Source: Acidimicrobiia bacterium
GTDB taxonomy: Bacteria; Acidobacteriota; Terriglobia; Bryobacterales; Bryobacteraceae
NCBI GenBank assembly: GCA_016871315.1
Contig: VFZE01000002.1
Coordinates: 186,001 to 250,000 of the forward strand
Length of the DNA: 64,000 bases
Reading direction: 5' to 3'
Within the stretch, counting starts at the first letter, position 1; every line of letters starts with the position of its first letter. The position numbers and the translations under genes are program-made. Of this stretch, positions 41,516 through 59,490 are shown piece after piece. The notes beneath the pieces were generated by a model. It saw nothing but the letters and a program-made list of their open reading frames with translations. It searched no databases and was not told the DNA's origin.

Positions 41516-42757
41516 TCAGTTGAGGGTGACGTCCACGCCGATGGCGTCGTGATCGGAGAGACGGACCGGCAGACCATCGCGAACGTCATGAATCACTCGC
41601 GGATTGCTGACTTGGAGTCCTCGTGTGGCGAACCAGTCAATCTTGAGCGGACATCCTCCGCCGTGCTCCCGTAGCGCCCAGCGGATAAACGGAAAGCACC
41701 AGCCGGGCACCCATTCCGCCAATCCCTTATGTGTGCTCAAGTCGTTCACGTCGTAGAAAATGGTGTGTTCGCCGAGCACATTGCTTCGCGTATACTCGAA
41801 TCCGCGTTGCTCCAGCATTTCAAACAGCGGCTTTTCAAAGCGGCGATAAGGATGCAGGTAATGGTTGCGGATCACGTTGCCTGGGCCCATGAAGACTCGC
41901 ACCCAATAGCCCATGATGGCGTGAAAGGCGGTGGAAGAGTTGAAGGTTGTTGTGTTCCAGTCTCCCCCCAGCAGAACCGGGCCTCGTTCCGGCATCGCGT
42001 CCACCACGCGCCGCATTTGCACGGCGCGGTGTCGCTGGCTGGAGTGCGCGTCGAGATGAATACAGGCCACGGTCAGCAACTTCCCTCCATGCTCGACATC
42101 GGCGGCTACAGCCCGCTGATGCCCCAAGCGCTTTTCCATGCGCGCCATCTTGTCGACGCCGTTCGGCAGATCCACATAGCGCGGGTTGGAAAGCGGATAA
42201 CGGCTGAGGATCGCGTTTCCGTGCAGCCCAAGTGCATTGTCGCCTTCCACATCCCTTTCCGTTCCCGAACCCTTGACTAGGCTCAAGTAGCAGGGCGCGA
42301 AGCAGTAGTTGAAGCTCAACTCGCGCGCGATCGTCGCGGCCACGTCGGCGTTGCCGCTGCGTGCCATGCCGAGATCGGTTTCCGTCAACAAAAGCACATC
42401 GCTGGTGCGCAAGTAAGGATGATTCCTGAACGCTTCCAACTGGCCTGCAAGCTGCTTTCCACGTTCTATATTCCAGGCAAGGACGCGAAGCGAATCTGAC
42501 TCCCTTGGAGCGCCGTCTCCACTGGTGCCCGTCTGGATTGTGCACAGGACTTGATGAAGTCTTGTACGCATCTGCTGATACACGGCGCTCGATTCCAGCT
42601 CCAGGAGCGAGCGGCATTGCGCCAACTCACCCCATCTCGGCTGGATTTCCTGTTTGATGATTTCGGCGATTTCCTGAGAGCCCAGGCGGCCGATCTGTTC
42701 AACCGCTTCCACCTCTAAATATGATAACGGCTTTCCACCTATCCCAGAAACGCGCAC
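41516..42757 (-). CDS. Endonuclease/exonuclease/phosphatase (EEP) family protein
   Basis: About 413 residues from a GTG at 42757; the start is uncertain (a GTG at 42712 is also possible). The EEP catalytic set is complete: A-W-N-I-E-R-G, L-L-T-E-T-D, C-I-H-L-D-A-H-S, G-G-D-W-N-T and L-S-D-H-D-A-I-G. About 115 N-terminal residues are helical and outside the domain. The 5' end overlaps the last gene of the phage-like block, on the same strand, so it may be transcribed with it. It could act on nucleic acid, phospholipid or a small phosphate ester. Confidence 0.82.
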   Translation of the reverse strand: MRVSGIGGKPLSYLEVEAVEQIGRLGSQEIAEIIKQEIQPRWGELAQCRSLLELESSAVYQQMRTRLHQVLCTIQTGTSGDGAPRESDSLRVLAWNIERGKQLAGQLEAFRNHPYLRTSDVLLLTETDLGMARSGNADVAATIARELSFNYCFAPCYLSLVKGSGTERDVEGDNALGLHGNAILSRYPLSNPRYVDLPNGVDKMARMEKRLGHQRAVAADVEHGGKLLTVACIHLDAHSSQRHRAVQMRRVVDAMPERGPVLLGGDWNTTTFNSSTAFHAIMGYWVRVFMGPGNVIRNHYLHPYRRFEKPLFEMLEQRGFEYTRSNVLGEHTIFYDVNDLSTHKGLAEWVPGWCFPFIRWALREHGGGCPLKIDWFATRGLQVSNPRVIHDVRDGLPVRLSDHDAIGVDVTLN

Positions 42758-45477
42758 CGTCTTAAGCTCGCCGGCATCGGCGCCGGGTAGCCGATCAGGC
42801 AAAACTGATCCAAAGCGAACAGAACGACGGATTCCACGTTTTCGGACTTTGCGATGTTCACTTCCTTCCCCCAAGCCGTGTAGGCATCCATAATCCCCAC
42901 CAGGAAGCTGCGCTGCGAACGTGGGAAGCCCTTCGCTTCTCCGTACTCGATGCTCATTCTGGCAAGATCCAGGTTGCGCTCAAAGGTGAACGTAAAGCTC
43001 TCGGTCTTGAGGCAATCCAGATTGGCCGGTGTCCACGTGGCAGGATAGTTGATGGCTCCTGTGAATGGGAAGTGGTTCACGTCGGGAGGATAGAGAACCT
43101 CGAACCGGCAGCTCGCGTGCGTGGCCTTGACGAACTGCATCACCGCGGTTGTGAACTCCCCAATCAGGGCCGGCAGGAACTCTACCTCTTCCGGATGCAG
43201 GGCGGGATCCACCGTATTGGAGCTGATCACGGCCATCGGCCGGCCGTACCTGGCCTGGAATTCACTGGTTGTGTATTCGTCGTAGAAAGGCAAGCCGGAG
43301 CCGGCCAAAGGGAAGTACCACCACTGCACTTCTCCGAATTGTAGATACGGCTGAACATTGGCTTCACCCATGAGAGTCGCCATCTCCAGGTACACTTGCT
43401 TCCAGAAGTTTGTGCTGGTGGGCGAAAAGTTGGTTTGCAACGCCGGTGTGTTTAGCAATGCGGGCGCGCCATTTGGGTATCGCTGCGCGATCCCGGCCGC
43501 AACAGAAGTATCACCGTGCTGCAACTCCATGCTGAAGGCCGCCGCCACATCGATGTTGTATAGCTTCAGCGCCTTATAAAAGCTCCGGCTCCAATCGCGC
43601 GCCGCGCGGTTAATGCGCGGCAGCGCCTGAAGATCCGTGTGCCAGGTGCCGTCAGTGCCGCCGGCGAGGGTTCCACTGGCCACCTCCAGCCGGAAGTCAC
43701 CGCTAGCTGGACTCCCCGCCACGGTGACATGATTGCCTTCCGTGCCCATTGCCCGGGCAAAGATGGTCAGTTGCGTCCCCTGAGCCGCCGCTCGAATCGC
43801 CGTGTAGCCGCGGTTCAGTTCCATCTCAAACGCCTTTGCGATTGTGACGGCGGAATCGCCGATGCGGTTCACATGCTGGATAACCGCGTCGCTTGAGGGC
43901 GGCTCACCAACTCTTCCTATCCGCAGCTCCGTGATTTCGCTGAAGACCGGAGTGCCCACAAAATCCACGGTAGTGGAAGCATAGACATTGCCGTCACAAA
44001 CCAGATCGTAAAACACCAAGGCCCCCACGTAGTGGTTAGCACGTCCCCAGAAACCAAGCGAGTAAATCATCCAAGCGGTGCGTTCGGGAGAAACCGCCAA
44101 CGAATGGTCCGTGTCCCAGTCTGTCGCCAGCGTCACCTTGTTGTCCGCGGGAACCTGCGACACGCTGTTGGCCGGGATCGCAACTTCCACAAAGTCGAAA
44201 TAAAAATAGCTGTCCTGGGGTCCATTGTGAGTTGCCACTACGGTGTGTGTTCCTGGTCCAAAAACACCGAGCGGAATTCGAACCAGGGTATCCTCGCCGG
44301 CGACGAAGAGATTTTCCGTGACCGCCGGTCCGCCGTCCACGCTGATCGACACCTGGCATCCGTTGAAGGCGAACCGGGTTCCCAAGTATAGTTCATGCGT
44401 CTGCGGACTCCTGTATTGACACCTGACGGAGGCGCCGGCATTTGTGGCGCTGCGGATCGTCCCTCCCGAAAAATTTCCTCGTCCCGAATCCCAAGAGCCG
44501 GTGTAAACCAGAGAACTATCGTCATCTTCGATTCTCCGGCTTCCGGGTCCGGCGACTCGATACTGCCTCCCGGTTCCGGTAACTGTCCAATTGGAAACCT
44601 CGGCCACAAATTCACTGCGCTGATAGGCGCCGGGCTGAAGTTCCGCCGAATAGGTCCAGCGCATCTTGCGAATTCGATCCGCCGGAACGGTGCGACTGTC
44701 GATGGCCGTCAGATTGTTGAGCGGGAGAGTGACTCTCCACTTGCTCGGCGACTGGCCACCGGAAAACTGAATAAACTGCGGGCTCCAGGATTCGGTCTGC
44801 GCTCCCGAGACGAAGCCATAGGCGCCAAGCCTGTTGCCGTTCGCGCCGGTTGTGCTGGTGGCCATCGTTTGGCCAGGTCCCACGTAGAACAACTCCACGA
44901 TGCTTCCGATCCTGGTTGCCTCCAGCGCGGTCGAGAAGGTGTTGACGATGTCCACAACCGCTTGCGCAGCCGACTCCAGCGTGTCGGACGCAGTCACCTG
45001 GTAGGTGTAGTGTTCAGTCTGGAAGGAAATCCCGACGTAGTCACCGGCCGTAATGGTGCCTTGCAGCTGCAACTCTGCTTTCGCAGGAACATAACTCCCT
45101 TCGATCGGAATCGCGTAATCCTTAAGCCGGACCTTGTAGAAATCCTCCGCTCCCTGATATCGCGTCCAGACGCGCAGAAAAGGCCAGTCCACGGTTGGAA
45201 ACAGGTCCGAATCCATCGGGATGCAATTGTTCCGAGTTTCCTCATAGCTGAGAACCAGGCCGCTCAAGTTCCCATCCGGCAGATTGCGGAATAGGGGATG
45301 CTCGATGACATTATGCTTGTTCCATTCCACCACCGCCCAATCGAACTGTTGCCGCCAGTTCCCCGACACCCGGAAACCGGTGGGCGAGGATTCACTGAAT
45401 GCGGCAATGGCCGAAGGCCGCTCGAAATAGACCTGCAGATCGCGATCCGGCCGAAGCTTCTCCAAAATTTCTGCCAC
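42739..45477 (-). CDS. Phage-like tail tip/fibre protein with carbohydrate-binding and glycosidase-like regions
   Basis: 912 residues, not matched to a named family. Residues about 1-290 carry phage-like beta domains (twice T-I-T-A-G-D / S-D-T-L-E-S-A-A-Q, a receptor-binding-like pattern). Residues about 300-430 look like a carbohydrate-binding jelly roll (S-W-D-S-G-R-G-N-F, Y-F-Y-F-D-F-V-E-V). From about 610 the sequence resembles a TIM-barrel glycosidase-like fold (Q-P-Y-L-Q-F-G-E-V-Q-W-W-Y-F, and D-Q-F-C-L-I-G-Y at the end), but catalytic residues were not confirmed. It is the last gene of the tail module, 10 bases after the hub gene. Confidence 0.6.
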   Translation of the reverse strand: MAEILEKLRPDRDLQVYFERPSAIAAFSESSPTGFRVSGNWRQQFDWAVVEWNKHNVIEHPLFRNLPDGNLSGLVLSYEETRNNCIPMDSDLFPTVDWPFLRVWTRYQGAEDFYKVRLKDYAIPIEGSYVPAKAELQLQGTITAGDYVGISFQTEHYTYQVTASDTLESAAQAVVDIVNTFSTALEATRIGSIVELFYVGPGQTMATSTTGANGNRLGAYGFVSGAQTESWSPQFIQFSGGQSPSKWRVTLPLNNLTAIDSRTVPADRIRKMRWTYSAELQPGAYQRSEFVAEVSNWTVTGTGRQYRVAGPGSRRIEDDDSSLVYTGSWDSGRGNFSGGTIRSATNAGASVRCQYRSPQTHELYLGTRFAFNGCQVSISVDGGPAVTENLFVAGEDTLVRIPLGVFGPGTHTVVATHNGPQDSYFYFDFVEVAIPANSVSQVPADNKVTLATDWDTDHSLAVSPERTAWMIYSLGFWGRANHYVGALVFYDLVCDGNVYASTTVDFVGTPVFSEITELRIGRVGEPPSSDAVIQHVNRIGDSAVTIAKAFEMELNRGYTAIRAAAQGTQLTIFARAMGTEGNHVTVAGSPASGDFRLEVASGTLAGGTDGTWHTDLQALPRINRAARDWSRSFYKALKLYNIDVAAAFSMELQHGDTSVAAGIAQRYPNGAPALLNTPALQTNFSPTSTNFWKQVYLEMATLMGEANVQPYLQFGEVQWWYFPLAGSGLPFYDEYTTSEFQARYGRPMAVISSNTVDPALHPEEVEFLPALIGEFTTAVMQFVKATHASCRFEVLYPPDVNHFPFTGAINYPATWTPANLDCLKTESFTFTFERNLDLARMSIEYGEAKGFPRSQRSFLVGIMDAYTAWGKEVNIAKSENVESVVLFALDQFCLIGYPAPMPASLRRCAFLG

Positions 45478-45487: not shown

Positions 45488-48400
45488 TTAGCAGCGGATC
45501 GTGACCGTCAAGTCACGCCCGGAAGTGGTCGTAAAGGTTTGGCCCACGGAGGTGACATCCAGCGTCAGCCGCGCCATGGCAGCCAGCGGCAGCAGGCCAA
45601 ACCCATCCACGATGTTGGAAATCGTGGCGCCCGCCGGAATCACGAGATTCGCGTAGGGGAGCCCGTCCTTCTTGAGCGTCAGCTCAATCGGCGCGCCCGT
45701 GGGAGCCTCGCCGACGACCGCAAAAACGTCGAGGACCGACCTGGCGGTCTCCACCACCAGCGGCGGGGCCGCGTTCGTCTGAATGGCCAGGAAGCCTTCC
45801 ACCTGAATCGCCAGCTGACCGCCGGAAAGAGTTCGCAGGCCATTCTCCACCGTGCCGGTAACGGCAACCTTGGAGGTTTCACTATTGCCGCGGCTGTTGG
45901 TCATCATCAGGTCCGCTGCCGCCAGCCGGATGTTAGGCAGCAGAATCGGGTAACTATAGCTCCCACTCGCCGGACTGCCGAAAAAGTCTCGGCTGAGCGG
46001 AATAATGAACACTTTGCGCTTCAGGTGATAGACAGCCGTGCCGGCAACATGAGCCACTGGTGCGCTTCCGTGGGAGCCCCGGAGAACGGTATAGGTCGTA
46101 CCCCCTCCCGTGACTTGTTGGATCTCGAGAATCTCCTTCTTCACCTGAACCAGATCTCCGGCTTGTCCACCGCCCGCGCTCGCCAATACAAGCTGCGTTG
46201 TGGCTGAGTCCATGGCCGTGCTCAACGAAAAACTGGTCGGGCTGGATAGCTCTTCCCAGTAATGCAGCGTCAGCGTGCCGGCGGTGATGGTTCTCGTATT
46301 GGTAAGGTCGGTGAAACCGATTCCTCCCACTTCGATAATCCCCCGTCCTTTCGGCGAGAAGGCATAGGTGGGCGGAGGAGGAACGTCTTGATCAGCGCTT
46401 CCGCCCGTCGCGCCCACAATTCGCCATCTCGTCACCGGCGAGAGATCTCGCGCCGATTCCCGTCCCTGGGCGCTGACCGCGCGCCCGGAGACATGAACCG
46501 TTGCCCCTTCGCGATTCGGAACGTCAAACTGAATCGGCGTGGTCTTACCGGCAGCGCCGAAGCGCCAGCTTGACTCAGCAATGACGAACTTGCTCGTGGC
46601 ATCCGGCGCGACGTCCCACTTGCGCCGCACGGTAATCGTGTTCGCCGTGTGGGACTGAATTTCCCTTTCCTGCCCTTTCCCCTTGCCGCTCGTGATGCGC
46701 ACAGCCATGCCCGCATACTCGTCGGGAATCAGTTGCAGGGAACCTGCGCCGATCGTATCCATGGAGAATACCGTCGCCGTGGTTTCCGGAGAGAGTTCCA
46801 GCCGCCATTCAAAACGTGCGTGATCGAAGTTCACGTCGGGCGGCCCGCTCAGGGTGGCCGCCAGTCCTGTGTCCTCGAACAGCGCCGCCGGCGCAACGCC
46901 TGACGCGATCCGCAGCAGTTGCTCGGGGCTCTCGCCGCGATACACACGGAACGAAGCCGTGCCGGGCGAAAAGCGCAGGTCCTGGAGAACCACTTTGTTC
47001 GTGTTCGTGCCGGACGGTATCGCCGCGCGGACGATGAAGGATAAAGGACCTTCCCCGCCTTGGCTGTTTACCGCACTGGCGGCATAATAGTGAACACTTC
47101 CCCCGATCAACGTCCCGCCTGTAGAGCTCGTGGCGGGGGAGAGAGAAACGTACGGGATTCCGAGCGAGTTATCCGTCTGCTTCTCCGGTGGAGTGAATGA
47201 CACCGTCAGGCTGAGGCTTACTCCTCCATCGGAATTCACCTGGATGTTCTCCACGACGCCGTACTGAGGCTGCTGACTCGCGTCGAGTTCGCTGCCTAAC
47301 AGCGGCCGTGGAACCGAGTTGTCTCCGTTCGGCTGGCGGCGCGAAACTCTGCTGCCTCCGCCGATCATGTCGGTGTACCAGGAATCCAGGTGAGCCTGTG
47401 CTTCTATCACCATGTCGCGGTGATTCAGGCCCGGCGCAAGGCGGATAATCCGGAACAGTTTCCTGACAAAACCTTCCTTGAGGTAGGTCAGGGTGATCAG
47501 GTCTCCCGGCTTCAGCCCAACCCCTTTGGCGCTGGTCTCAAACTGCACGTAGAGGTTTCCCTCGATCGACTTGTCCAACTGGCGCTGCAGAATGCGAGCC
47601 GCCTGGTGGAAATTTGGAATGCCGTATGCGGGATACGTCAGGCTGACTTCCTGCCCGATGGCTACCGCGTCCTCCACATCGATAAGGGAAAGGCTGTCCT
47701 GCTGGTATTCATTGAACTGGTCCTGAAACTCCAGGCTGTAGCGATTCGCCGTCTCGTGTGTGCCTCGCGACCACACGCGCACGCTCGATTCCCCATTGCC
47801 ACGCCGGAGAATCCCGGAGAAGCTACTGCTGCCGTCGCCGAACTCATAAGCCGGCCAGCCGCCGTTCAATGCCGCGGTACTGTTGCTGCCCCCGGGTTTC
47901 ACCGGCTGCTGCATCGCCAGTGTCGCCTCCACTCGCAGCTCCAGAAGACCGTTTGCCCCGTAGACTAAGTACAGCCCAGCGCCGTTCCGGATTCCACGAA
48001 TCAAGTCGGCCGCGCTCTTCCTTCGCCGAACGCCCAGGTTGCATTGATACCGGGGCGCCTGAACCGCATTGCCGAACAGATCAGAAACCGAGATCAGCTC
48101 CGCGCAGTGCGCCGCTGCCTTGGCGAAGCTGGCCAGGTTCATCTCGTCTGCTTTCCAGCCGCTTCGCCGCAGCAGATCCAGAATCACCCATGCCGGATTG
48201 TTCGTAAAGCTGTCCTGCTGGAAGTTCCCGTCCAACCCGTAATGAGGAAGCTTCAGTCCTTCCATCAGAACGCTGATTCGTGGCAGCGCCCCGCCGTCGT
48301 TCACACGATTCGGAACCACAACCGACATGTAGGCCATGCTGCCGTAGGGGTCTCCCAACGGCTGGCCGCTGCCATCGGTGAAGTCGAGGTTGAAGCCGCC

Positions 48401-49417
48401 GGTCAGTTCACCATGGGTGACCGTGTTGAACCAGCCGGTGGAAGTCATATTCTGCCCGCTGACGCCCTGCGGAATATCGATCCCGTTGACCACCACTTTC
48501 ACTACGCGGTTGATTTCGCCCGCCCCCAGCAGTACTTCCATGCGCGTCAGGTTTCCGTCGTTTCTGGAATAGACGATGAGCGGCTGCATCCACACGGTCC
48601 CATAGTTGAGCGGAACAAAATCGTTGTACCGGGCCTGGTTGTCGATCACCGGTGATTCGCGCAGCCCTTTTTCACCCTGCCCGCGAACGAGGATCGACGC
48701 CGGGACGAACTCAATCCCCCCGAAGCGCCGGGTAGGACGGCTTTGAGAGTCCTGATTGAACATGCCGCGCTGTTCACAGGAGGCGCGCGTGTAGTCGCAA
48801 CTCGTGTAGGGGGCAGTTCCGTTAAGACTGCCGAGTCCTCCGGTCAGGTCCGCCGAATAGCCGCACCGGAAGAACGGCGAATACTTTCCACGGTCTCCTC
48901 CGTCCACTGCTTCCTGCCTTTGTTCCACGGTTGCCGGGAAGGTCCATGGGCATCGGCGTTGAATGCGGATGTCGGGCAGCAGCATCCGCTGAAGGCTCAG
49001 CCGATTCGTAAAGCTGACTCTGAGGTAATCTTCCGTGATGTCCTCGGCCGCGTTCGCGATACCACGGAAAAGAACCATCCCTTCGGAGGCAGCCTGGCCC
49101 AGCCGCAGATCGAAAAACAGGAACGTTGCCGTCAGCCGGGCGCCACGAAATCCCGCGTTGTGCTCAATCTGGGAGAACTGAGAGTCGGCGTTGGCCAAGG
49201 TCAGCGACAACTTGGAAACCGCATCAATCCCTTCATCAGAACCCGTGCGCGACTCGAACAGATTGTGGCGAAGCACTCGCGGCAGGTAAGTCTTGCCGCT
49301 ATGTACCACTTTGTGGGTGCTCCAGTGCTTTTCCTCTCCGTCCGGTAGCACACAATCGAAAAGGATTAAGGGCGTCTGAGTGACAACCTGTTCTTTGATC
49401 TCGGATATGGTCGGCAT
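45488..49417 (-). CDS. Phage-like tail hub / host-specificity protein
   Basis: 1309 residues, the longest protein of the block. The first third resembles the DUF2163-type baseplate hub domain: after about 150 residues comes C-P-W-T-F-P, then F-F-R-C-G-Y-S, a Cys-rich C-D-Y-T-R-A-S-C-E-Q-R-G-M-F and R-R-F-G-G-I-E-F. The middle (about 330-700) reads like the gpJ-type tail-tip region, and the rest contains fibronectin-like and beta-helical segments (for example S-F-R-V-Y-R-G). In long-tailed phages such a protein closes the tail and contacts the receptor. It starts 6 bases after the paralogous distal-tail gene. Assignments are from overall pattern. Confidence 0.75.
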   Translation of the reverse strand: MPTISEIKEQVVTQTPLILFDCVLPDGEEKHWSTHKVVHSGKTYLPRVLRHNLFESRTGSDEGIDAVSKLSLTLANADSQFSQIEHNAGFRGARLTATFLFFDLRLGQAASEGMVLFRGIANAAEDITEDYLRVSFTNRLSLQRMLLPDIRIQRRCPWTFPATVEQRQEAVDGGDRGKYSPFFRCGYSADLTGGLGSLNGTAPYTSCDYTRASCEQRGMFNQDSQSRPTRRFGGIEFVPASILVRGQGEKGLRESPVIDNQARYNDFVPLNYGTVWMQPLIVYSRNDGNLTRMEVLLGAGEINRVVKVVVNGIDIPQGVSGQNMTSTGWFNTVTHGELTGGFNLDFTDGSGQPLGDPYGSMAYMSVVVPNRVNDGGALPRISVLMEGLKLPHYGLDGNFQQDSFTNNPAWVILDLLRRSGWKADEMNLASFAKAAAHCAELISVSDLFGNAVQAPRYQCNLGVRRRKSAADLIRGIRNGAGLYLVYGANGLLELRVEATLAMQQPVKPGGSNSTAALNGGWPAYEFGDGSSSFSGILRRGNGESSVRVWSRGTHETANRYSLEFQDQFNEYQQDSLSLIDVEDAVAIGQEVSLTYPAYGIPNFHQAARILQRQLDKSIEGNLYVQFETSAKGVGLKPGDLITLTYLKEGFVRKLFRIIRLAPGLNHRDMVIEAQAHLDSWYTDMIGGGSRVSRRQPNGDNSVPRPLLGSELDASQQPQYGVVENIQVNSDGGVSLSLTVSFTPPEKQTDNSLGIPYVSLSPATSSTGGTLIGGSVHYYAASAVNSQGGEGPLSFIVRAAIPSGTNTNKVVLQDLRFSPGTASFRVYRGESPEQLLRIASGVAPAALFEDTGLAATLSGPPDVNFDHARFEWRLELSPETTATVFSMDTIGAGSLQLIPDEYAGMAVRITSGKGKGQEREIQSHTANTITVRRKWDVAPDATSKFVIAESSWRFGAAGKTTPIQFDVPNREGATVHVSGRAVSAQGRESARDLSPVTRWRIVGATGGSADQDVPPPPTYAFSPKGRGIIEVGGIGFTDLTNTRTITAGTLTLHYWEELSSPTSFSLSTAMDSATTQLVLASAGGGQAGDLVQVKKEILEIQQVTGGGTTYTVLRGSHGSAPVAHVAGTAVYHLKRKVFIIPLSRDFFGSPASGSYSYPILLPNIRLAAADLMMTNSRGNSETSKVAVTGTVENGLRTLSGGQLAIQVEGFLAIQTNAAPPLVVETARSVLDVFAVVGEAPTGAPIELTLKKDGLPYANLVIPAGATISNIVDGFGLLPLAAMARLTLDVTSVGQTFTTTSGRDLTVTIRC

Positions 49418-51326: not shown

Positions 51327-52007
51327 CGTTTCTCTCCTTAGCCAGCTCCGCTTCCAGGACGCAGAAGGCTTCCACTTTTCGGGCGGGCCATTCCGGGCTT
51401 ACCGTTCCGCCCAGTCTCTTCCACACAAAGAACTCCTCAATCCAGGCGAGGCTTTGTGGCGTGATCAACGACTTTGGGCAGGAGTCCGCTGTGACGCCAT
51501 TTCTCGCCCAGATAATCGGTGGAGCTTCGTGGGATTGCTCCTCAATCCATCCGCATCTGCGCTTGGATTCCAGACCGCTTTGCCGGCAACTATCGCATGT
51601 CCACGCGGCCTGGTTTGCGTGCTGGAAATGGAATGCGACGATCAGTTTTTTCGTTCGGCTTCGCTCAGATGGCACTCGGCCTTCACGGCCGCCACCATCT
51701 CCTGGGTAAGGGTTTCCGGCCCTTTGCTGATTACCAGCTCAGGGCCGGCCTCCTCCCCGTCAATTCGAAGACCGTGCACCTCCACCAGACCCCACTGCAA
51801 GTACAGCCGGTCCATCTCCTGGCTGATCAATGCGGCCTGAACCTGGTCGTCCCAGCTGGAGCCGGCCTTCAAAAACTCGCACTTCTGTCCCAACTCCCGA
51901 ACCATTCGCGTCAATTCAATTCGCCGGGACATGGACATGCGCGCCACGCGAAACGTGACACCCGGCGCTGTTTTCGATTCATGCCGCACCGTGCTTGCGT
52001 GTTCCAT
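51313..52007 (-). CDS. Frameshifted tail-assembly chaperone (G-T type fusion)
   Basis: Predicted -1 frameshift product of about 231 residues: the 121-residue upstream frame (to 51645) joined at the A AAA AAC site to 110 residues of the downstream frame. The extension carries a C-x-x-C (W-T-C-D-S-C) and another Cys-Gly (R-R-C-G-W). In lambda and many siphoviruses the longer form is made at a low rate and both forms chaperone the tape measure, which is the next gene. The downstream frame also has its own GTG at 51675 with AAGG nearby, so independent translation cannot be excluded. Confidence 0.7.
51642..52007 (-). CDS. Tail-assembly chaperone, zero-frame product (G type)
   Basis: 121 residues, mostly charged helices (R-R-I-E-L-T-R-M-V-R-E-L-G-Q-K, then A-A-L-I-S-Q-E-M-D-R-L). 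It ends E-R-K-N followed by TGA within the slippery sequence, so most ribosomes stop here. It follows the tail-tube candidate (3 bases) and precedes the tape measure, which is the expected place. Confidence 0.7.
   Translation of the reverse strand: MEHASTVRHESKTAPGVTFRVARMSMSRRIELTRMVRELGQKCEFLKAGSSWDDQVQAALISQEMDRLYLQWGLVEVHGLRIDGEEAGPELVISKGPETLTQEMVAAVKAECHLSEAERKN
51645..51651 (-). promoter_or_regulatory. -1 programmed frameshift slippery heptamer A AAA AAC
   Basis: On the minus strand the zero-frame codons CGA AAA AAC TGA contain the heptamer A-AAA-AAC, among the best known -1 slippery sequences, with the stop codon immediately after it. Shifting by -1 gives AAA AAA CTG and continues in an open frame of 110 codons. 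The overlap between the two frames is only 34 bases, as in tail-chaperone G/T pairs. No downstream pseudoknot was worked out. Confidence 0.75.
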
Positions 52008-52010: not shown

Positions 52011-53183
52011 CTACCCGAATGCAATCACAAGCTCGTCATTGGATGTTCCCTGCGCACGGCTGCCGCTGAATCGCCACTGCAGACTCTTGTCTCTATCATC
52101 GAATTCCGGTACTGTGGGAACCACACCCTTCATGTAGACCCCACAGAGTTGACTTCCCTGCTGGCCCAATTGCAACATGATCGGGATTGGCGATCTCTGC
52201 CGCGCGGCCTGATACAAGGCGGTGGTTTCCGGCTCGTCGTTGCCATAGATGCGGAAATTCATCTCCACTCTCCGGCGGCCCGCCACCAGGCACTGCGGAG
52301 TATCGGAGCCGAACTCGTGATGACGGCCCTCCAAATCGTTGTCCAGAATGATTTCAGCTTCCAGCAGCGAGAAGAACTCGCTTGGTACGTTGCCCATCCA
52401 CGCTTGGCCGAGGTTGCCAGGAACAACTGTGTAGTTCCATTCCCCGATCGCTGGTTCAGTGGGGAATGAAACCAGACCGGCCTGATTGGCGGTATGGGTC
52501 GCGCTATCGACCAGGTCTTTGGCGATCCCGGAGAATCGAAACGCGTGGAAGTCTCCATTCACGCCAATCCGAAGCCGGTCCACTCCGCACCCAGCTAGTA
52601 TTCGCTGAACCGCGCTTTGCGGATCCCAATAATCGTGGATGCTCACGCTGGGCAGTTCGGTGGCCGGCAGATAGGTGACCGTCGGTCCTATCAGGCTTGC
52701 CTGAGCAGGGGTCTTGCGAAACGGAGAATTGATGACTACAGAGACTGGATCGACGATGGCGTCTACAAAGCGCAGTTCGCCCTCGCACTCGATCGCCTGA
52801 TCCGCCACCAGCCCATGCGGCGCTAAGAACGTCAACTGCGTTTCCCCTGTGACTGACTGCAAGGTTCCGCCGGAAAAGAACACCGGGGCTCCCCCTAAGG
52901 CAGCTTGAAACAGAGGCCCATATGCGGGTTCTCCAGCCGGCTCACTCCAGCTCGTCAGGAATGTCTCCAACTCAAACGAGGTGCGTTTCCGGAACCCCGG
53001 CGGTAGCCCGATGAACGTCCGTCCGCCGGTCTTGTCACGCCGCTCCGGCAGTTCCTGTTGATGATGCATGGCCAGGCGCACGGCGGGAATCCGATTGGCC
53101 TCAGTAACCTGGGCTGCGATGCCGTAACCGCTCTCCAGCGACGTGTAGAAGCGATTATTTCTTGACGATATGTAACATGCCAT
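52011..53183 (-). CDS. Tail-tube-like protein
   Basis: 390 residues. A beta-rich protein with a repeated layout (L-T-F-L-A-P-H-G-L-V-A-D-Q-A, S-V-S-I-H-D-Y-W-D-P, I-L-A-G-C-G-V-D-R-L and W-R-F-S-G-S-R-A-Q-G-T near the end). Two related halves, as in double-domain tail tube proteins of GTA- and TP901-like systems, are suggested by recurring G-x-D-x-x-R-I-x-x-N-G-D/F patterns. It sits between the tail-completion gene and the chaperone pair. No close family was identified. Confidence 0.55.
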   Translation of the reverse strand: MACYISSRNNRFYTSLESGYGIAAQVTEANRIPAVRLAMHHQQELPERRDKTGGRTFIGLPPGFRKRTSFELETFLTSWSEPAGEPAYGPLFQAALGGAPVFFSGGTLQSVTGETQLTFLAPHGLVADQAIECEGELRFVDAIVDPVSVVINSPFRKTPAQASLIGPTVTYLPATELPSVSIHDYWDPQSAVQRILAGCGVDRLRIGVNGDFHAFRFSGIAKDLVDSATHTANQAGLVSFPTEPAIGEWNYTVVPGNLGQAWMGNVPSEFFSLLEAEIILDNDLEGRHHEFGSDTPQCLVAGRRRVEMNFRIYGNDEPETTALYQAARQRSPIPIMLQLGQQGSQLCGVYMKGVVPTVPEFDDRDKSLQWRFSGSRAQGTSNDELVIAFG

Positions 53184-53205: not shown

Positions 53206-53703
53206 CTAGTTTCGGCGCACATCCAACTCCAGCGAAACCCGTGCGGTTTGCAGGAAATTCTTGCCGCCGCGCTTGACACCGCCGAACGTTACCTCATAGC
53301 CGCCTGGATAACAGATCCCATCTGCCCACTCGCCTACGCTTTGCTCCAGGACCATCGTCACTGCGTCGACATAAAAGTGCATCCGCTCCTCCATGTCTTC
53401 CAGGCGGTCTTGCGAAACCCTGACTTCGACTACCATGTGTGCCGTACCGGAGAAGCGAACAAACTTTTCCTTCTGCGAATTCACGATTCGCTCGCAGTAG
53501 AGGTACACAAGCGGGTACTTAGTGCCCAGCGCTTTCTCCGCGATCTCGCTTAGGACGTTCTGCCCAATAATCTGAGTTGCGCCAATCACGCTGACATCCA
53601 GCGTCGAGGTGTCCATCAATTCCGCCACCGCGGCAGGCAGCCCATCCTCAGCCCGTAGCCGTTCCGCGAGGGCACTCACCGTGATCGTTCCGATTCCTGC
53701 CAT
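53206..53703 (-). CDS. Tail-completion/terminator-like phage protein
   Basis: 165 residues, alpha/beta with L-A-E-R-L-R-A-E-D-G-L-P-A-A, Y-L-Y-C-E-R-I-V-N, V-V-E-V-R-V-S-Q-D-R and a closing R-V-S-L-E-L-D-V-R-R. Position, between a head-proximal gene and the tail-tube candidate, and size suggest a head-tail or tail-terminator protein. Not recognised by motif. Confidence 0.5.
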   Translation of the reverse strand: MAGIGTITVSALAERLRAEDGLPAAVAELMDTSTLDVSVIGATQIIGQNVLSEIAEKALGTKYPLVYLYCERIVNSQKEKFVRFSGTAHMVVEVRVSQDRLEDMEERMHFYVDAVTMVLEQSVGEWADGICYPGGYEVTFGGVKRGGKNFLQTARVSLELDVRRN

Positions 53704-53707: not shown

Positions 53708-54475
53708 TTATCCCCTTTGCAGCGTCCGGTGACGGCGGATGAATCGATCCGGTGTTTGTCCCGGGCTGGGTGTGTCCCCTTCGATTAGGCCCCCTGGAGG
53801 CATGGTCCAGCTATTCTCGGCAGCCACGGGAGTGACAGTTTGCAGCGACAGACTGGCCTCCGTCAAACCTGCATAAACGTCATAGGAAACCGCGCCAGAC
53901 GGCTTGAGGGGCGGAGTCGCCATAACTGTCTGTCCTTCCGCGATCTCAAGCGTTACCGGCAAACTCGGCGCACCGTGTTCACCGAAGTGATTTCGCCATG
54001 CGATGCCGATCACATAGGTTCCCGGAGTCAATGTTCCCGCCACCGGTGTAAGGGAAGGCGAGCTTGCCCTGGATAACGGCTGCACTCGAATTCCTACGCC
54101 GGTCAGAAACAGCATCTCGCTTGTCTGTTTCGCGAGTGCCACAAACTGGTTCCATTTCCCCAAGTAGCGATCGTTCAGTTGGCTGTTGTACACGTCTCCA
54201 TAGACCAGCGCCAACGTCCGCAGCGTGTGCCATTGCTGGAGGCCGGGAGTGACCACCACCTGATGCAGCCCAAAGCCGCCACCATGGAGTGCAGCCGAGG
54301 GGCCGCCGGTTTGTTGGAGCAGGAATGCTTGTAGCTCGAGTGCAATCTCTTGATCCGCAACGGCGATCTTCGAAGTAAGATCCACCCCTTCGATGCGGGC
54401 TACTTCCAGCACCGCGCTGTCGTAGGCCTGAAGATCGCTGAAGCCGGTAATGTTTGAATCCGTGTATAGTGCCAT
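53708..54475 (-). CDS. Phage-like structural protein, fibre-like C-terminus
   Basis: 255 residues. The first 80 residues look like a head-completion helical region (S-D-L-Q-A-Y-D-S-A-V-L-E-V-A-R-I-E-G-V-D), but the second half contains a fibronectin-like segment (Y-V-I-G-I-A-W-R-N-H-F-G-E and Y-D-V-Y-A-G) as in fibre or tail proteins. Four bases after it starts the 165-residue gene. Not recognised. Confidence 0.5.
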   Translation of the reverse strand: MALYTDSNITGFSDLQAYDSAVLEVARIEGVDLTSKIAVADQEIALELQAFLLQQTGGPSAALHGGGFGLHQVVVTPGLQQWHTLRTLALVYGDVYNSQLNDRYLGKWNQFVALAKQTSEMLFLTGVGIRVQPLSRASSPSLTPVAGTLTPGTYVIGIAWRNHFGEHGAPSLPVTLEIAEGQTVMATPPLKPSGAVSYDVYAGLTEASLSLQTVTPVAAENSWTMPPGGLIEGDTPSPGQTPDRFIRRHRTLQRG

Positions 54476-54495: not shown

Positions 54496-54819
54496 CTATT
54501 TGGAGTGCCTCTTCCCGCGGGTAAGGTTAGGCAGCTCACTATCAGTCACCAGGCGCACCTGGATGCGCTCCAAGGCGGAAGCCTCCGCCGCGCGCAAGCG
54601 GACTTCCTCCGCTTCGCGATGAAACTGGTCAGTCTCTATTTCGTCGGCAAGACGCGCCTTGCCCTCCACGATTAGCTTCGCGGCGATGCTTCGTGGCACC
54701 TGGGACTTCACGCCTTCCCGGCCTCCGTCGGGAGTGGCGACGCTGATCACGACGGCATCCGATCCGGCAATCGTTTTCTCGACGTCTTCGATTTTTCTGT
54801 AATAGCTTCTAAGATCCAT
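54496..54819 (-). CDS. Small phage-like protein after the coat gene
   Basis: 107 residues, not recognised. N-terminal Y-Y-R-K-I-E-D-V-E-K-T-I, then V-V-I-S-V-A-T-P-D-G-G-R and a basic, helical C-terminus (R-L-R-A-A-E-A-S-A-L-E-R). It is the first gene after the coat-protein hairpin. Could be a head-decoration or head-completion protein by position only. Confidence 0.5.
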   Translation of the reverse strand: MDLRSYYRKIEDVEKTIAGSDAVVISVATPDGGREGVKSQVPRSIAAKLIVEGKARLADEIETDQFHREAEEVRLRAAEASALERIQVRLVTDSELPNLTRGKRHSK

Positions 54820-54840: not shown

Positions 54841-54866
54841 GGGCCCGAGGGTTTCGCCCCGGGCCC
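54841..54866 (-). terminator. Hairpin downstream of coat gene
   Basis: GGGCCCG pairs with CGGGCCC with one bulged A, three further pairs and a 5-base loop. It lies 78 bases beyond the coat-gene stop and ahead of the next gene. No T run follows on the coding strand, so partial termination or an mRNA-stabilising end is as likely as full termination. Confidence 0.5.
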
Positions 54867-54943
54867 TTTAAACAGCTTCCTTTCCGTTTCCTCAACTTGC
54901 GGGTGCCTGTTTTGCCGCCCGCATGCAATCCGGAGAAAGATCG

Positions 54944-55855
54944 TTAGCTTCTCACTTGCACGCCGAAGATGTTGCGAAGAATGCCGGCGCCGTAGAGAAC
55001 GTCCACGGTGAACTGCTGGGCCAGCGTGTCGGGCTGGTAGCTCATCACCACGCGCATACCAAAGTTGCCCAATTCCGCGTACTCAGCGATCGCGCCGGTA
55101 CCCGGCAAGGGCTGCGGCAGCCGGCGAATCACCAGGCCGATGGCATCCTTGGAAAAGGCAACGTTGTTCGTGGTGAACGGACCCAAGCCGGTCTTGGAAA
55201 CAAACTGCGACCGGAACACAAAGAAGTCCTTGATCTTGCCGACCGACCCGTCGATCAGCGCACGAAGACCGGCTTCACCGGCCGTGCGGTACTCACTGAA
55301 CCGCGTAATCTGACGCAGCTCCGAATAGGCTTCGCCACTGACAACGAGATGCTTGTGAGCGCTGGCAGGAACCTTCGCATTGAATAGAGCCGTCTCGGCG
55401 GCATCGATCGTCGCCTCGGTCAGCGGACTTCCGCCGGAGCCCACCGGCGTGTTGGCCGTGAACTGGCCGTACAGGCCCAGCAGATCGCTCTCGATCCTCT
55501 CCGCCAGGGCAGTCACCGCCGGCTGCATGTACAACCGCAGCAGATCCGGCACGGCAAGCACCTTGGTGACGTCGGGAATCTGGAACGTCGCTTCCGCGTG
55601 GGTATTCAGCACGATCTGCGCGTTGCCCAGGTTCGGGTTCTGCGTCACCACCGTGCCACCCTGCGAAATGTTGTTGGCCACCAGCGTCGGCGGAATCGGC
55701 ACATTGATTGTGTCTCCCGCCTGAGCCAGCCGCGGCTCAAAGTCGCGATTGACCAGGTTACCCATGACAAGGTTCCCCATAAGCGCAGGCAGCGCGTCGG
55801 CCGCCACTAACTTAACAATCGCTTGCGCTACATTAGCTGATGTAATTACAGGCAT
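54944..55855 (-). CDS. Major coat protein, P22-type candidate
   Basis: 303 residues. The sequence starts I-T-S-A-N-V-A-Q-A-I-V-K-L, then V-N-R-D-F-E-P-R-L-A-Q-A-G-D-T-I-N-V-P-I-P, a layout shared with P22-like HK97-fold coat proteins (V-N-R-D-Y-E, G-D-T-V-x-I). Further blocks include A-L-A-E-R-I-E-S-D-L-L-G-L-Y and S-E-L-R-Q-I-T-R-F-S-E-Y-R-T-A-G-E-A-G. The gene has an AGGAGG-like ribosome site and is framed by hairpins on both sides. It would form the icosahedral shell. Confidence 0.82.
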   Translation of the reverse strand: MPVITSANVAQAIVKLVAADALPALMGNLVMGNLVNRDFEPRLAQAGDTINVPIPPTLVANNISQGGTVVTQNPNLGNAQIVLNTHAEATFQIPDVTKVLAVPDLLRLYMQPAVTALAERIESDLLGLYGQFTANTPVGSGGSPLTEATIDAAETALFNAKVPASAHKHLVVSGEAYSELRQITRFSEYRTAGEAGLRALIDGSVGKIKDFFVFRSQFVSKTGLGPFTTNNVAFSKDAIGLVIRRLPQPLPGTGAIAEYAELGNFGMRVVMSYQPDTLAQQFTVDVLYGAGILRNIFGVQVRS

Positions 55856-55919: not shown

Positions 55920-56510
55920 CTAGTTGCCTCGCATCGTCTGCAAAGCGACTCGGGAAATCTCTTGGCGAATGCTTTCCAGTTCCTCCGGATCCATCCCCGG
56001 CCGGATCTTGTCCAAGTCAAAACTCGAACCCCTTGCCGAAGTCTCGCGCTGGCCGGTCGTCGCTCCCGATCCACCCACCATCCGTGCGGGGAGGAACTCG
56101 GGGTTGTCATCGACGAACTGAGTCAGGTATTCCTGCAGACCCACCGGCCCCTCCGTGGATCGGACCACGAGGCTCCCGTCTTCGCCTCGAACGATGTCGT
56201 CCTTCACGATCTTGAAAGCGAGATCCACCTTCTTCACTCCCAGACGCTGCAGTTCGCTGCGAATGGCGGTGCTTCGTTCCGCCTCTTCCGCGCGGCTACG
56301 GCTCCTCCGGTTCTCCTCGGCTAGTTGGTTCAGACGAACCTCCAACTGTTCCCGCCTCTTGCGTTCCTCCAGAAGCTCCGCCTTGTAGGCAGGCTCTGAT
56401 TTTGACTTCTCCTGATCCATGAACTCCGCGATGACATTTCGAATGACCATCCGCATGTCAGGCGAAGCCGCTTCTTCCACTGTTCTGTTCTGTTTCTCTT
56501 TGGAATCCAT
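55920..56510 (-). CDS. Scaffold-like protein
   Basis: 196 residues. A long charged helical stretch (K-A-E-L-L-E-E-R-K-R-R-E-Q-L-E-V-R-L-N-Q-L and S-R-A-E-E-A-E-R) is followed by an acidic, low-complexity tail ending in Q-T-M-R-G-N. Helical, low-complexity proteins directly ahead of the coat gene are characteristic of scaffolding proteins that guide shell assembly. No enzymatic motif. Confidence 0.65.
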   Translation of the reverse strand: MDSKEKQNRTVEEAASPDMRMVIRNVIAEFMDQEKSKSEPAYKAELLEERKRREQLEVRLNQLAEENRRSRSRAEEAERSTAIRSELQRLGVKKVDLAFKIVKDDIVRGEDGSLVVRSTEGPVGLQEYLTQFVDDNPEFLPARMVGGSGATTGQRETSARGSSFDLDKIRPGMDPEELESIRQEISRVALQTMRGN

Positions 56511-56531: not shown

Positions 56532-57920
56532 TTACTTTCGCTCCATGCCTTTGTCGATTTCGCAGGAGATCTGATCCTTCACTTCCTGCCGGACATCGCA
56601 CAGGTACTTGAAGGCCAGCTTCTTGTACACCTGCTTCCGCAACGTCTCTGAGTTCATTTCGAGCCCCAGAAGCCTCTCGGCATCCGCGATCTCGCCGCTG
56701 AAATCTCCGATATCAAACTCATCCATTCCGGATACGTCTAGACATAACCGGTCCTGGCGTGCTTCGAGGATGGCGCGCAACACCCTCTTGATGGAGTCCT
56801 TCACCACGTCTCCGTAGGCACGCAGCACTTCCTGGGTAATGGCGAAGTCCCGCTGCTTGCTCAGACCGGATTGCGCGTTTCCGCTCAACGGACCTCCCGC
56901 CTGGGAAAGGAGGTAGCAGACACGATAGATCTCCTCCTGCAGTCGGTTGAGATTGTTGGCCGCTATCTGATACACGGTTCCCTCTGGCTCAGTCCAGCCG
57001 AATCGGTCCTGCGGCCCGAGCTGAATGTAATAGGATTCACCGATAATCTGGTTCCACTCCCGCTCGCTGTAAACCACAGGAGTGGCAAAAAGTCCCATCG
57101 TCAAAGCCCAGCCAAGGGCGTTCGATTTGTTGAAGTGCTCCAGTTGCAGAAGTCCTGCCTTGTTCATCAACCACAGGCCTTCGGGAATCTTCAGTTCGAA
57201 AAGGGGCACGCGTTGCTGGCGGGCAAGCCCATGTTGGCCGCTGTCAATCAACTCCACTGCGGCATCATTCGCCGCACTGGAACGCTGCCGGTAAACCTCG
57301 AACTTTGTCTTGTCGTAGTAAAAATATCTTGTCTCGCGCTGCCATTGGGCCTCGCGGACGGAGTCCTTGGTCAGGTAGGTGCTCTTCAGCACCACCCACT
57401 CGTAGGCGCCGAACTCGTCATAGTGCCAGTTGATGAGTTGCTCGGCTGTGTAATCCACAAGGTATGCACGCGAGGCGCCCGTTTCCTCTTCTTCCGCGCG
57501 ATTCCCCGGCGAGTGTGTCGAGCGCGGAAAATCGACCAGTACATAACTTGAGCCAACAATCAGTGCCTCTAGGATCTGTTTGCGGAAGAAGTCCGTGACG
57601 GTTGTTCCCTTCCGGTCGCAGTTGTCCGCGAAGCCGTTCACGAACGCTTTTCCCCGTTGATCGTCTCCTTCCACCAGTAATAGCGGTTCCCTTCGAAAAA
57701 GGGTCGCGACATACCAATCAATGATCGACCCGACATAGTTTTCGTAATACACTTTGTCGAGCCGCTCGTGGTATACGTCCAGGGGTTCCTTCTGGCGTCG
57801 AGTCAGGTACTCCGACGCGTTTTGCCGCAACTGTTCTCCACCGACGTACAAAGCGCGATAGCGGCGCAGCATGGTCTTTCTGGCCGCGTAGTCTGGATGC
57901 TCCAGCATGATTTCCTGCAT
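56532..57920 (-). CDS. Portal protein
   Basis: 462 residues. Long helices with an early Y-Y-E-N-Y-V-G-S-I-I-D-W-Y-V-A-T-L-F-R-R-E-P-type segment, G-S-S-Y-V-L-V-D-F-P at about 125, and L-L-S-Q-A-G-G-P-L-S-G-N-A-Q-S-G near 350 resemble portal proteins of the DUF4055 type. It lies between the large terminase and the scaffold/coat genes, as expected for the ring at the DNA-entry vertex. Confidence 0.75.
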   Translation of the reverse strand: MQEIMLEHPDYAARKTMLRRYRALYVGGEQLRQNASEYLTRRQKEPLDVYHERLDKVYYENYVGSIIDWYVATLFRREPLLLVEGDDQRGKAFVNGFADNCDRKGTTVTDFFRKQILEALIVGSSYVLVDFPRSTHSPGNRAEEEETGASRAYLVDYTAEQLINWHYDEFGAYEWVVLKSTYLTKDSVREAQWQRETRYFYYDKTKFEVYRQRSSAANDAAVELIDSGQHGLARQQRVPLFELKIPEGLWLMNKAGLLQLEHFNKSNALGWALTMGLFATPVVYSEREWNQIIGESYYIQLGPQDRFGWTEPEGTVYQIAANNLNRLQEEIYRVCYLLSQAGGPLSGNAQSGLSKQRDFAITQEVLRAYGDVVKDSIKRVLRAILEARQDRLCLDVSGMDEFDIGDFSGEIADAERLLGLEMNSETLRKQVYKKLAFKYLCDVRQEVKDQISCEIDKGMERK

Positions 57921-57961: not shown

Positions 57962-59266
57962 CTAAATCAATCTGTTCTGCTTTTCTCCGATCACTAGCTT
58001 GGGTCCCATTTCCTGCCAGATCAGATACCCAAGCGCGTCGGACACATGAGTCCGCAGCGGATCACTCGATTTGTCGATCTCACTGCTCTCTGCGAGGTAA
58101 CGAACTTCATCAAAATCCTTGATGAGTTCCCCGCACTTGCCATCCACCCAAAGCGTGGTTTCCCCGTCCGCGTTGAGTAACTTTCCGTTCACCAAGCCAA
58201 TACGATCGCGTACCGCTGGATTGCTCCGCGGAACACGGTAGGTGACGTTCATCAGGCCCTGTCTTGAAAAGACATCCCGGATAATCTCGTAATCCGTGGT
58301 TCCCGAGGTCTGACGACGGTTTCCCGACGCATCTCCATAAATCACCAGGCGGCGGCAACTGCCTCCAAACCGGCGTAGAAACTCCGTGCACACCTCTGAA
58401 GTGCTGGATCGCCTGATCACGATTTCATCCAGCACATGAATGTGCCCCTGATCAATCTGCGCGACCACCGAGCACATCGGGTCCACGTTAAAATCCAGCG
58501 CCCACAGCAACGGCAGTGCGCGGTTCAGCGTAAGCGGCCGGACCTGCAAGTCATTGCGGAACGCGTGGTATACGCGATTGCTGTTCGCGTTGAGGTACTC
58601 TCCGAGAACCTCCTGCCGGAAAAACTGCTCGTCGTAGCTCTTCTTCAGCCGGTCATAAAAGTCCGGCACCGATTTCAGGAGGAAGCGGTTCTCAAACGCC
58701 GGCGCCAGCACCACTTCATAGCCGTCAATGCGATCCTGAATGAATCGCTTATATACCCAATCCTTGCCCTTTGGCGTCCACACGGCGAAACCGCACAATC
58801 GGCTTGCCTTCGGATCTCTCAACCGGCCCTCCAGCCGCTTCCACGCATCCTCGCATGCATAAGTGAGTTCGTCCAGCCCAAACCATGCCAGGTTTGTCCC
58901 GCGCAACCTTTCCACCTCACTGAGCGTTCGAAAGATGACTTTCGAGCCGGTGTCGGTCATGGTCACCGTATTGGTCGCCTGCGTCAACACGAACGGGATC
59001 TTGTTTTGCCGCAATATCTCCAGAAATGCCACCTGGGTGGCATCCTTCAGCATCGTGTAAGTAGGGGCACCAAGCAGTCCCATCCGCCCTGGATTCTGAT
59101 AATTGAGACGGATTGCTTCCTGGCACAATGCCTGGCTCTTTCCAGATCCAATGGGCCCGGAAAAGCCTTTGAAGCGAGCCTTCAACTGGTGGAATCGTCT
59201 CTGCGACGGCAAGCTTGCATACTCTATTCTTCGCTCGATGGTTCTCCAGTCTCTGGCTCCACCCAT
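57962..59266 (-). CDS. Terminase large subunit
   Basis: About 434 residues from the ATG at 59266, which overlaps the preceding gene by 43 bases. Walker A is G-P-I-G-S-G-K-S at residues 37-44; Walker B with catalytic acid is L-A-W-F-G-L-D-E-L near 126-134. The RNase-H-like nuclease domain is visible as W-A-L-D-F-N-V-D-P, V-I-Y-G-D-A-S-G-N and V-S-D-A-L-G-Y-L, giving three acidic ligands. It packages DNA into procapsids and cleaves concatemers or headful ends. All key residues look intact, so the motor could be active. Confidence 0.92.
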   Translation of the reverse strand: MGGARDWRTIERRIEYASLPSQRRFHQLKARFKGFSGPIGSGKSQALCQEAIRLNYQNPGRMGLLGAPTYTMLKDATQVAFLEILRQNKIPFVLTQATNTVTMTDTGSKVIFRTLSEVERLRGTNLAWFGLDELTYACEDAWKRLEGRLRDPKASRLCGFAVWTPKGKDWVYKRFIQDRIDGYEVVLAPAFENRFLLKSVPDFYDRLKKSYDEQFFRQEVLGEYLNANSNRVYHAFRNDLQVRPLTLNRALPLLWALDFNVDPMCSVVAQIDQGHIHVLDEIVIRRSSTSEVCTEFLRRFGGSCRRLVIYGDASGNRRQTSGTTDYEIIRDVFSRQGLMNVTYRVPRSNPAVRDRIGLVNGKLLNADGETTLWVDGKCGELIKDFDEVRYLAESSEIDKSSDPLRTHVSDALGYLIWQEMGPKLVIGEKQNRLI

Positions 59267-59490
59267 TGCACTTTGATCTCCCTCGTTTCCTTCACGGCCA
59301 ATTTCTCGTGCAACGCCAGCAGTTTGATCCAATCAGCCACGGATACCCTCGTAGTGTCGGTCAACTTAGCTTCGAAAACATCGGCGAGCTGCCTTACTCG
59401 GGTAGCTATCTCCGAATGCTCGACGACGTTCCCTGACTTCGATTCGCTACGCTGATTTGCTGTGCGCTTCTTCGATTTCTCTTTTTCCAT
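59224..59490 (-). CDS. Possible terminase small subunit
   Basis: 88 residues. GGAG five bases before the ATG marks a likely start. The charged N-terminus (K-E-K-S-K-K-R-T-A-N-Q-R) is followed by helices (V-R-Q-L-A-D-V-F-E-A-K-L and V-A-D-W-I-K-L-L-A-L-H-E-K-L). Its place directly before the large terminase and the size suggest a short DNA-recognition subunit, but no helix-turn-helix motif is certain. It is the most upstream gene of the block. Confidence 0.5.
   Translation of the reverse strand: MEKEKSKKRTANQRSESKSGNVVEHSEIATRVRQLADVFEAKLTDTTRVSVADWIKLLALHEKLAVKETREIKVQWVEPETGEPSSEE

Follow-up and report, generated by a model that had tools for sequence, protein, structure and literature searches.

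The stretch of DNA analysed here (the window, 64,000 nucleotides) corresponds to positions 186001-250000 of contig 2 of a genome that is 98 % complete. On its minus strand, a virion gene block extends over 42739-59490, as proposed by the first-pass annotation and confirmed by the open reading frames (16 ORFs, or 15 genes with the chaperone pair counted as one). The gaps of at most about 125 bp noted before are also borne out, the widest measuring 124 bp (54820-54943). The block and its neighbours on the tip side comprise the following features:

59224..59490, minus strand: small terminase (TerS) candidate, 88 aa, directly upstream of TerL in many relatives
57962..59332, minus strand: large terminase TerL (phrog_2, 3.6e-36; PF04466, PF03237)
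56532..57920, minus strand: portal protein (phrog_145, 9.9e-45)
55920..56510, minus strand: scaffold candidate between portal and coat (PF06810, 3.9e-4, under the Pfam cut-off)
54944..55855, minus strand: major coat protein of P22 type, 303 aa (phrog_283, 3.9e-38; PF11651, 1e-14)
54496..54819, minus strand: conserved small head/neck gene g107 (constant position, 30-55 % identity in block relatives)
53708..54475, minus strand: head completion/neck candidate g255 (weak match to phrog_8040, head closure, 0.004; constant position)
53206..53703, minus strand: neck/tail completion candidate g165 (constant position, 28-51 % identity)
52011..53183, minus strand: predicted tail tube protein, 390 aa (phrog_290 in 20/21 members; AlphaFold and Foldseek)
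51313..52007, minus strand: tail assembly chaperone pair with -1 frameshift (A AAA AAC heptamer directly 5' of the stop)
50586..51326, minus strand: short tape measure, 246 aa (weak match to phrog_3779; conserved C-terminal stretch)
50223..50582, minus strand: DUF2460 protein a, 119 aa (PF09343, 3e-7, 30.5 bits versus a cut-off of 30.4)
49424..50221, minus strand: DUF2460 protein b with extra C-terminal region (PF09343, 1.3e-5, under the cut-off)
45488..49417, minus strand: tail hub, 1309 aa (PF13550, Phage-tail_3; phrog_31, tail fibre J; weak match to the T5 pb3 hub)
42739..45477, minus strand: tip/TIM-barrel protein, variable (PF23845, 5e-21)
41516..~42712 (upper end by gene caller), minus strand: flanking host gene of the Exo_endo_phos family, a locus marker
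40236..41498, minus strand: flanking host gene, class III aminotransferase (PF00202), a locus marker

Profile searches (PHROG, Pfam) back the earlier naming of TerL, portal, P22-type coat, Phage-tail_3 hub and TIM-barrel tip. Of the two tail genes labelled DUF2460-like, one lies just above the Pfam cut-off and the other under it, and the scaffold is backed by its position and a sub-threshold profile match. Together with the tube fold, the matches satisfy the GTA criterion of particle proteins derived from caudoviricetes, while the tailocin criterion (no head or packaging genes) is not met: portal, coat and TerL are present, TerL being missing in the lineages g54 and g55 treated below. Coat identity to the window copy amounts to 73-85 % in the loci read and to 87 % in genome G001.

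The Walker and nuclease residues of TerL had been described as intact, and D280, D334 and D432 are indeed invariant in the 21 rows of the alignment; the Walker A motif (GxxGxGKS) is seen in the 11 TerL rows whose called frame reaches that region. From knowledge of the family we take these residues and the Walker A motif to be catalytic. According to the alignment, codon 23 of the listed TTG ORF (about 59266) is the probable start of TerL. The designation of 59224-59490 as small terminase could not be confirmed, there being no convincing family match and only a low-confidence two-helix model in which no HTH was seen; a TerS fold assignment from predicted structure was dropped, the model being too weak. 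The TerS candidate displays 21-33 % identity in alignment A4 and is less constrained than the rest of the block, with dN/dS values of 0.52 and 0.33 obtained from two pairs.

Assignment of the 390-aa protein as tail tube is supported by its AlphaFold model (pLDDT 86), which Foldseek matches to the tail tubes of P74-26 and T5 (E 7.8e-16 and 1.1e-13). The frameshift site in the chaperone gene, postulated before, is real: at 51642-51653 of the window CGA AAA AAC TGA stands in frame, with a long -1 extension. An A6 run was observed directly 5' of the called chaperone stop in 32/35 loci, and A6 followed by C, T or G within at most 560 nt after the tube gene in 36/36 loci, against a background of 5.3 % (reading frame not checked in this count, which leaves out G016, G254 and the cousin phage loci of G054, G041b and G032b). 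The tape measure has 152-255 aa in 34 called block copies, as compared to 944 and 999 aa for the genes at the same position in cousin phage loci; this shortness speaks to the tail only, not to head size. The tip gene differs between genera, with no match at the tip position in, e.g., G033, G029, G026 and G047, and a few loci contain split genes (hub in G021 and G143, tip in G036). Separate TIM-barrel tip-like genes were also observed on the opposite strand near the block in the regions of G028, G205 and G206 (L210, L282, L280).

The flanks are chromosomal as claimed, with an Oar-type receptor gene at 59701-62937 on the one side and the class III aminotransferase gene on the other, the latter separated from the tip gene by the endonuclease/exonuclease/phosphatase-family (EEP) gene. 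The reported absence of mobility functions was reproduced within the following bounds: no tRNA was found in the stretches scanned, no att-like repeat flanks the block (41-63 kb, at least 16 nt, 12-nt seed), and no integrase, replication or lysis gene occurs among the block genes and 13 flanking genes scanned, only two of which lie on the TerS side (to 63.4 kb). A regulator was not found for the block in the stretches scanned either. Within these bounds, neither hallmark of a temperate prophage applies, be it neighbouring genes for integration, replication or lysis or att-like repeats on the flanks.

For comparison, up to 40 kb around the block were read at 27 block-type loci (one per genus), three cousin loci and in ten further genomes, and flanks were compared through matches that lie within 9 kb and have at least 38 % identity. 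The EEP gene adjoins the block also in G024 (63 %) and on contig 9 of G054 (67 %), and the aminotransferase gene is at the same place in G024 (63 %); on the rpoB tree, the window, G024 and G054 contig 9 form one group with G001 and G010. A PBP1 region flanks the block in G047, G259, G254, G044 and G205-G207 (further off in G034), a Wzt-type ABC gene lies downstream of it in 14 regions (10 genera) and an M24 peptidase gene in 15 (11 genera), and ilvBNC-leuA is found beside it (G008, G033, G043, G005, G058) on either side and in differing orientation. Thus, the place is shared group-wise, possibly with the Wzt/M24 side as the ancestral one, and the block has been subject to moves or inversions. 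The expectation of one and the same locus in relatives holds insofar as flanks are common to groups of genera, but at least four different settings exist. Different insertion sites, named beforehand as a sign against the proposal, are therefore partly present, whereas patchiness within the family is not seen and no mobility gene was found. With the block lying between host genes and flanks common to groups of genera, the GTA criterion of full endogenisation is met.

The distribution is not patchy but family-wide across Bryobacteraceae (naming the counted family so is an inference). TerL matches were obtained in 190/237 family genomes, 67/76 genera and 126/148 good-quality genomes, a few of them being weak and possibly due to cousin phages (e.g., G054, G050, G123). 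Coat matches were obtained in 201/257 genomes of the order, 198 of them among the 237 family genomes and a few by fragments; the block mostly gives one match per genome. Among 101 relatives, TerL was found in 52/61 family genomes and in 7/40 others (four of these strong), and a phylum sample yielded 13/396, of which three belong to the family and the remaining ten do not exceed 142 bits. Both TerL and coat are missing in some genomes (G011, G157, G170, G173); these sit among bearers on the rpoB tree, suggesting repeated loss or assembly gaps. Among 50,697 phage records, TerL identity does not exceed 31.4 % in the best 20 of 956 matches and coat identity 27.1 % in the best 15 of 60 matches, and the hub gave two partial matches. 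In one IMG/VR scan, 409 stretches encode a relative of the block TerL, and no contig is longer than 22,542 bases in the best 80 rows from each of two scans, which overlap in some contigs. Of seven IMG/VR relatives of a cousin-phage TerL, two reside on contigs of 53.8 and 37.9 kb and the other five on contigs of 4.5-14.2 kb.

Gene order is conserved as TerS-TerL-portal-scaffold-coat-g107-g255-g165-tube-chaperones-tape-DUF2460a-DUF2460b-hub, followed by a variable tip, wherever the contig covers the block and the genes were called (the simple caller missed single genes). G068 contains four extra genes between tape measure and DUF2460a (L229-L230), the one scanned giving no Pfam match, and the tape-to-hub stretch is absent from the gene calls of G014. 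A concatenated tree of 13 block proteins from 28 genomes, with the partial loci of G016, G034 and G014 kept with gaps, has 13/25 splits in common with the rpoB tree and differs in 12/25, while 1000 label shuffles gave a mean of 0.29 and a maximum of 3 common splits. Distances correlate accordingly (Mantel r 0.72), a value reached by 0/5000 permutations (best 0.46). With TerL alone (37 genomes), 9/34 splits and a Mantel r of 0.52 were obtained; a missing TerL entry in this tree does not mean absence, as G161 and G089 do have TerL, and the coat is present in G054, G055, G141, G142, G059 and G031. The trees were computed with FastTree, without formal reconciliation. Inheritance is mostly vertical, satisfying a further GTA criterion, though congruence is not full.

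The block had been judged to be maintained, and the dN/dS check run here agrees, revealing purifying selection in close pairs. Median dN/dS (Nei-Gojobori) of the block is 0.066, 0.157 and 0.093 in the pairs G213/G212, G252/G258 and G206/G205, respectively, versus 0.031, 0.075 and 0.083 for flanking genes; the coat ranges from 0.007 to 0.021 in three close pairs. GC3 of block and flank correlate with r 0.90 (n=35; means 0.73 and 0.75), the window itself having 0.69 in the block and 0.77 in the flanks. The partial contigs of G016, G254 and G034 and the cousin phage rows are not part of the GC3 count, and the cousin phages G054, G041b and G032b were left out of the block counts in general.

The initial reading as a GTA-like or domesticated tailed particle is thus supported, and with a probability of roughly 0.6 we interpret the block as an independently domesticated, GTA-like viriform of Acidobacteriota, the packaging and transfer of host DNA being inferred. 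A tailed-phage structural operon would have been domesticated by Bryobacteraceae and then passed on with the chromosome, for the most part by vertical descent. In most species, terminase, portal and coat would have been retained along with an apparatus for short-tailed delivery, no replication or integration function being seen at the locus. The particle genes would be expressed under host control, TerL together with a TerS lacking a recognisable HTH may package mostly random host DNA by the headful mode, and hub and tip would serve to inject the DNA into relatives. The data directly establish the gene content, the distribution, the co-diversification with the hosts, the selection and the frameshift site, whereas the formation of particles, their packaging, transfer, regulation and release are inferences from genomic data.

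The operon of RcGTA encodes TerL, portal, coat, a short tape measure as well as DUF2460- and Phage-tail_3-type tail proteins. The likeness to alphaproteobacterial GTAs pointed out initially holds for the layout, i.e., a vertically inherited structural operon of similar gene content as in RcGTA/Rhodogtaviriformidae, but not for sequence. Four PDB searches (tube, DUF2460b, hub, TerL; coat and portal outside their scope) gave a single weak RcGTA match, that of the DUF2460b profile A2 to the head spike fibre Rcc01080 (E 9.6e-4). Close sequence kinship with RcGTA was not found in them, and the criterion for alphaproteobacterial type I GTAs (homologous structural proteins) is not met in these searches. 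The block further differs from RcGTA by its P22-type coat, its T5/P74-26-type tube, the other phylum and two lineages without terminase.

Chromosomal, immobile and tailed-particle-forming is also the nature of PBSX, whose loci hold lysis genes and a regulator. The block resembles PBSX in being chromosomal and immobile and in its tailed-particle genes, but differs from it in that neither lysis genes nor a regulator were found. BaGTA amplifies its own region, whereas no replication gene was found for the block; with BaGTA, VSH-1 and other GTAs the block would share the independent domestication of a tailed phage, no sequence comparison having been made. GTAs comprise at least three independently exapted groups (PMC9662315), and the TerS of RcGTA has no DNA-binding HTH, which its authors tie to random packaging (PMC6854486). 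The TerS candidate of the block is likewise without recognisable HTH, albeit in a low-confidence model.

The GTA reading is complicated by two lineages without terminase genes. In genus g55, TerL was detected in 0/8 genomes but coat and portal in 8/8 (L355-L358, L384-L390; L359-L361 cover g55/g54 loci); the two g54 genomes likewise have no terS-terL at the locus, where G054 contig 9 and G191 pass from host genes straight into the portal gene. The portal match is only 128-376 nt from ribBA in G141, G142, G143, G145 and G055, leaving no room for terL. Loss of the whole block from g55, as inferred from TerL alone, was rejected by the coat search and by reading the loci. Upstream ORFs in g54/g55 were also discarded as divergent terminases, their Pfam matches being FAD oxidase, thioredoxin-like, ribBA, Fe-ADH, PQQ-propeller and PTPS (no match for three of the ten scanned). 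By TerL profile, no block-type TerL was found elsewhere in the ten g54/g55 genomes, but only a cousin-phage TerL in G054. In G212/G213, an 810-aa gene stands between terS-terL and a ribBA copy that is 55 % identical and on the same strand, with Wzt/M24 downstream of the block as in g55. The ribBA and Wzt/M24 flanks of g55 are thus common with terL-bearing genera, and the most economical interpretation is that terS-terL were lost at this common locus; the exact event is left open by the extra 810-aa gene, which has no match in the g55 regions.

The portal-to-hub genes are kept in the terminase-less loci, except that the hub is split in G143 and g107 is not recognised in g55. The A6 site is also kept in all 8 terL-less loci examined (A AAA AAT in four). 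Purifying selection in these lineages is stated only where measurable: G142/G143, both of which were read as far as ribBA without meeting terL, give a dN/dS of 0.03-0.26 with the portal saturated, and G143/G146 give 0.02-0.08 (the G146 contig ends shortly upstream of the portal). Other g55 pairs are partly saturated, and some values with G141 reach 0.3-0.5, its coat value stemming from a mislabelled ORF. With terS-terL gone yet the rest kept, the selected function in g55/g54 may not need the block-type motor. Such particles would either work without DNA or be served by another terminase, or else decay is slow.

Best surviving among the alternatives, though in our view unlikely, is a domesticated particle serving as weapon or delivery device, i.e., a PBSX-like DNA-carrying killer or, in the terminase-less lineages, a DNA-free head-and-tail particle. 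Persistence of head and tail genes without terS-terL at low dN/dS (G142/G143, G143/G146) and the difference of the tip gene between genera would agree with such a device. However, TerL with conserved motifs is kept in most species, and the scanned genes revealed neither a toxin nor a lysis function. Tailocins are headless and have no need for portal or coat, and a headless weapon would leave unexplained why both are well conserved.

Another terminase could be provided by packaging modules elsewhere in the genome that serve the structural operon in trans. Candidates are orphan split-terminase cassettes (L370:1288-2867, L375:794-2214, L392-L394, L396-L399, L401), in which a TerL ATPase gene was found in 8/10 places, adjoined in six by a separate nuclease-like gene and with a similar KHG-motif gene nearby in four; several divergent copies occur per genome, and no block-type structural gene was matched around them in the places fetched. 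PF03237 matches in short open frames (259-361 aa) are present in 8/8 tested terL-less g54/g55 genomes, and the cassettes were confirmed by sequence reading in the terL-less G141 and G055. By frame length alone, such matches (209-379 aa) occur in 9/22 terL-bearing genomes as well. Nevertheless, g55 is one clade, so that the association is not independent, cassettes are not restricted to terL-less genomes, the ATPase query gave no match at the single place inspected in G191, and neither co-regulation nor co-evolution has been demonstrated. Moreover, a TerL usually must match its portal. We therefore hold service in trans to be improbable. As a tentative possibility, a family-wide phage-derived particle may be envisaged of which at least two lineages dropped the motor and kept capsid, portal and tail, the particle being DNA-free or loaded by a terminase encoded elsewhere (e.g., in orphan cassettes), so that a GTA lineage would have turned into some other cell-made particle.

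Three cousin phage loci (G054:C157, G041:C156, G032:C144; L243-L246, L208) share the structural order of the block, with extra genes between. Their coat is 71-77 % identical to that of the block, as compared to 31-48 % for TerL and 33-35 % for portal. Unlike the block, for which no replication genes were found, the loci of G054 and G041 contain genes for a DNA polymerase processivity factor, and that of G054 also methyltransferase/ParB, exonuclease and Sak4-like genes (the scan for DNA metabolism and tape measures covered G054 and G041 only, not G032). The 944-aa gene of G054 matches tape measures, whereas the 999-aa gene of G041 occupies the tape-measure place without family match. The gene upstream of TerL matches a small-terminase family in G032 (E 7.6e-13) and weakly in G054 (0.038), but not in G041, and no convincing match was obtained for the block candidates.

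That the block is merely an ordinary or decaying prophage family common in the group appears highly improbable. In favour of this reading, the structural genes derive from phages, the family also harbours cousin phages, the flank setting varies from one group of genera to another, and a 2025 study (PMC11924767) classed Bryobacterales regions, probably these, as proviruses. Against it, no mobility or replication genes are seen, flanks recur across genera, and there are rpoB congruence, purifying selection and GC3 amelioration. The Bryobacterales-specific "group (i)" proviruses of that study have a shared gene order and are listed for Solibacter usitatus Ellin6076, KBS 96 and Paludibaculum fermentans. 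Although sequences were not compared, these proviruses probably represent the same block. The words "gene transfer", "domesticat" and "defective" have 0 occurrences each in the main text of the study. Earlier studies mention a single prophage in each of Bryobacter aggregatus and Solibacter usitatus (PMC5900883) and no intact prophage in S. usitatus (PMC3174227). No description of an acidobacterial GTA was found in those parts of the open-licence literature that could be searched (without bioRxiv; GTA passages of PMC12142844 and PMC5900883 included).

Should the particles of the GTA-like viriform favoured here carry DNA, GTAs would be an old, family-wide trait of Acidobacteriota, common soil bacteria. 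The particle type would then be unlike RcGTA, and much of what is catalogued as viral contigs would probably stem from host chromosomes. The natural terminase-less lineages would offer a direct way to ask what such particles are for.

An AT-rich motif (core TTTTCAATNACTTAG) upstream of TerS exceeds the 99 % control level in 31/38 blocks (leave-one-out). As a block-specific regulon it was rejected, because the core pattern occurs elsewhere too: 53 sites in 14/20 genomes (1-8 each) versus 12 for the reversed pattern, with no consistent gene downstream in 20 places (L298-L317, two reduced by contig ends). In the pair G213/G212 (L289-L292), synonymous divergence is 0.04-0.17 across TerS and TerL but about 0.4 further along the block, a pattern such as recent recombination affecting the block's start would leave.
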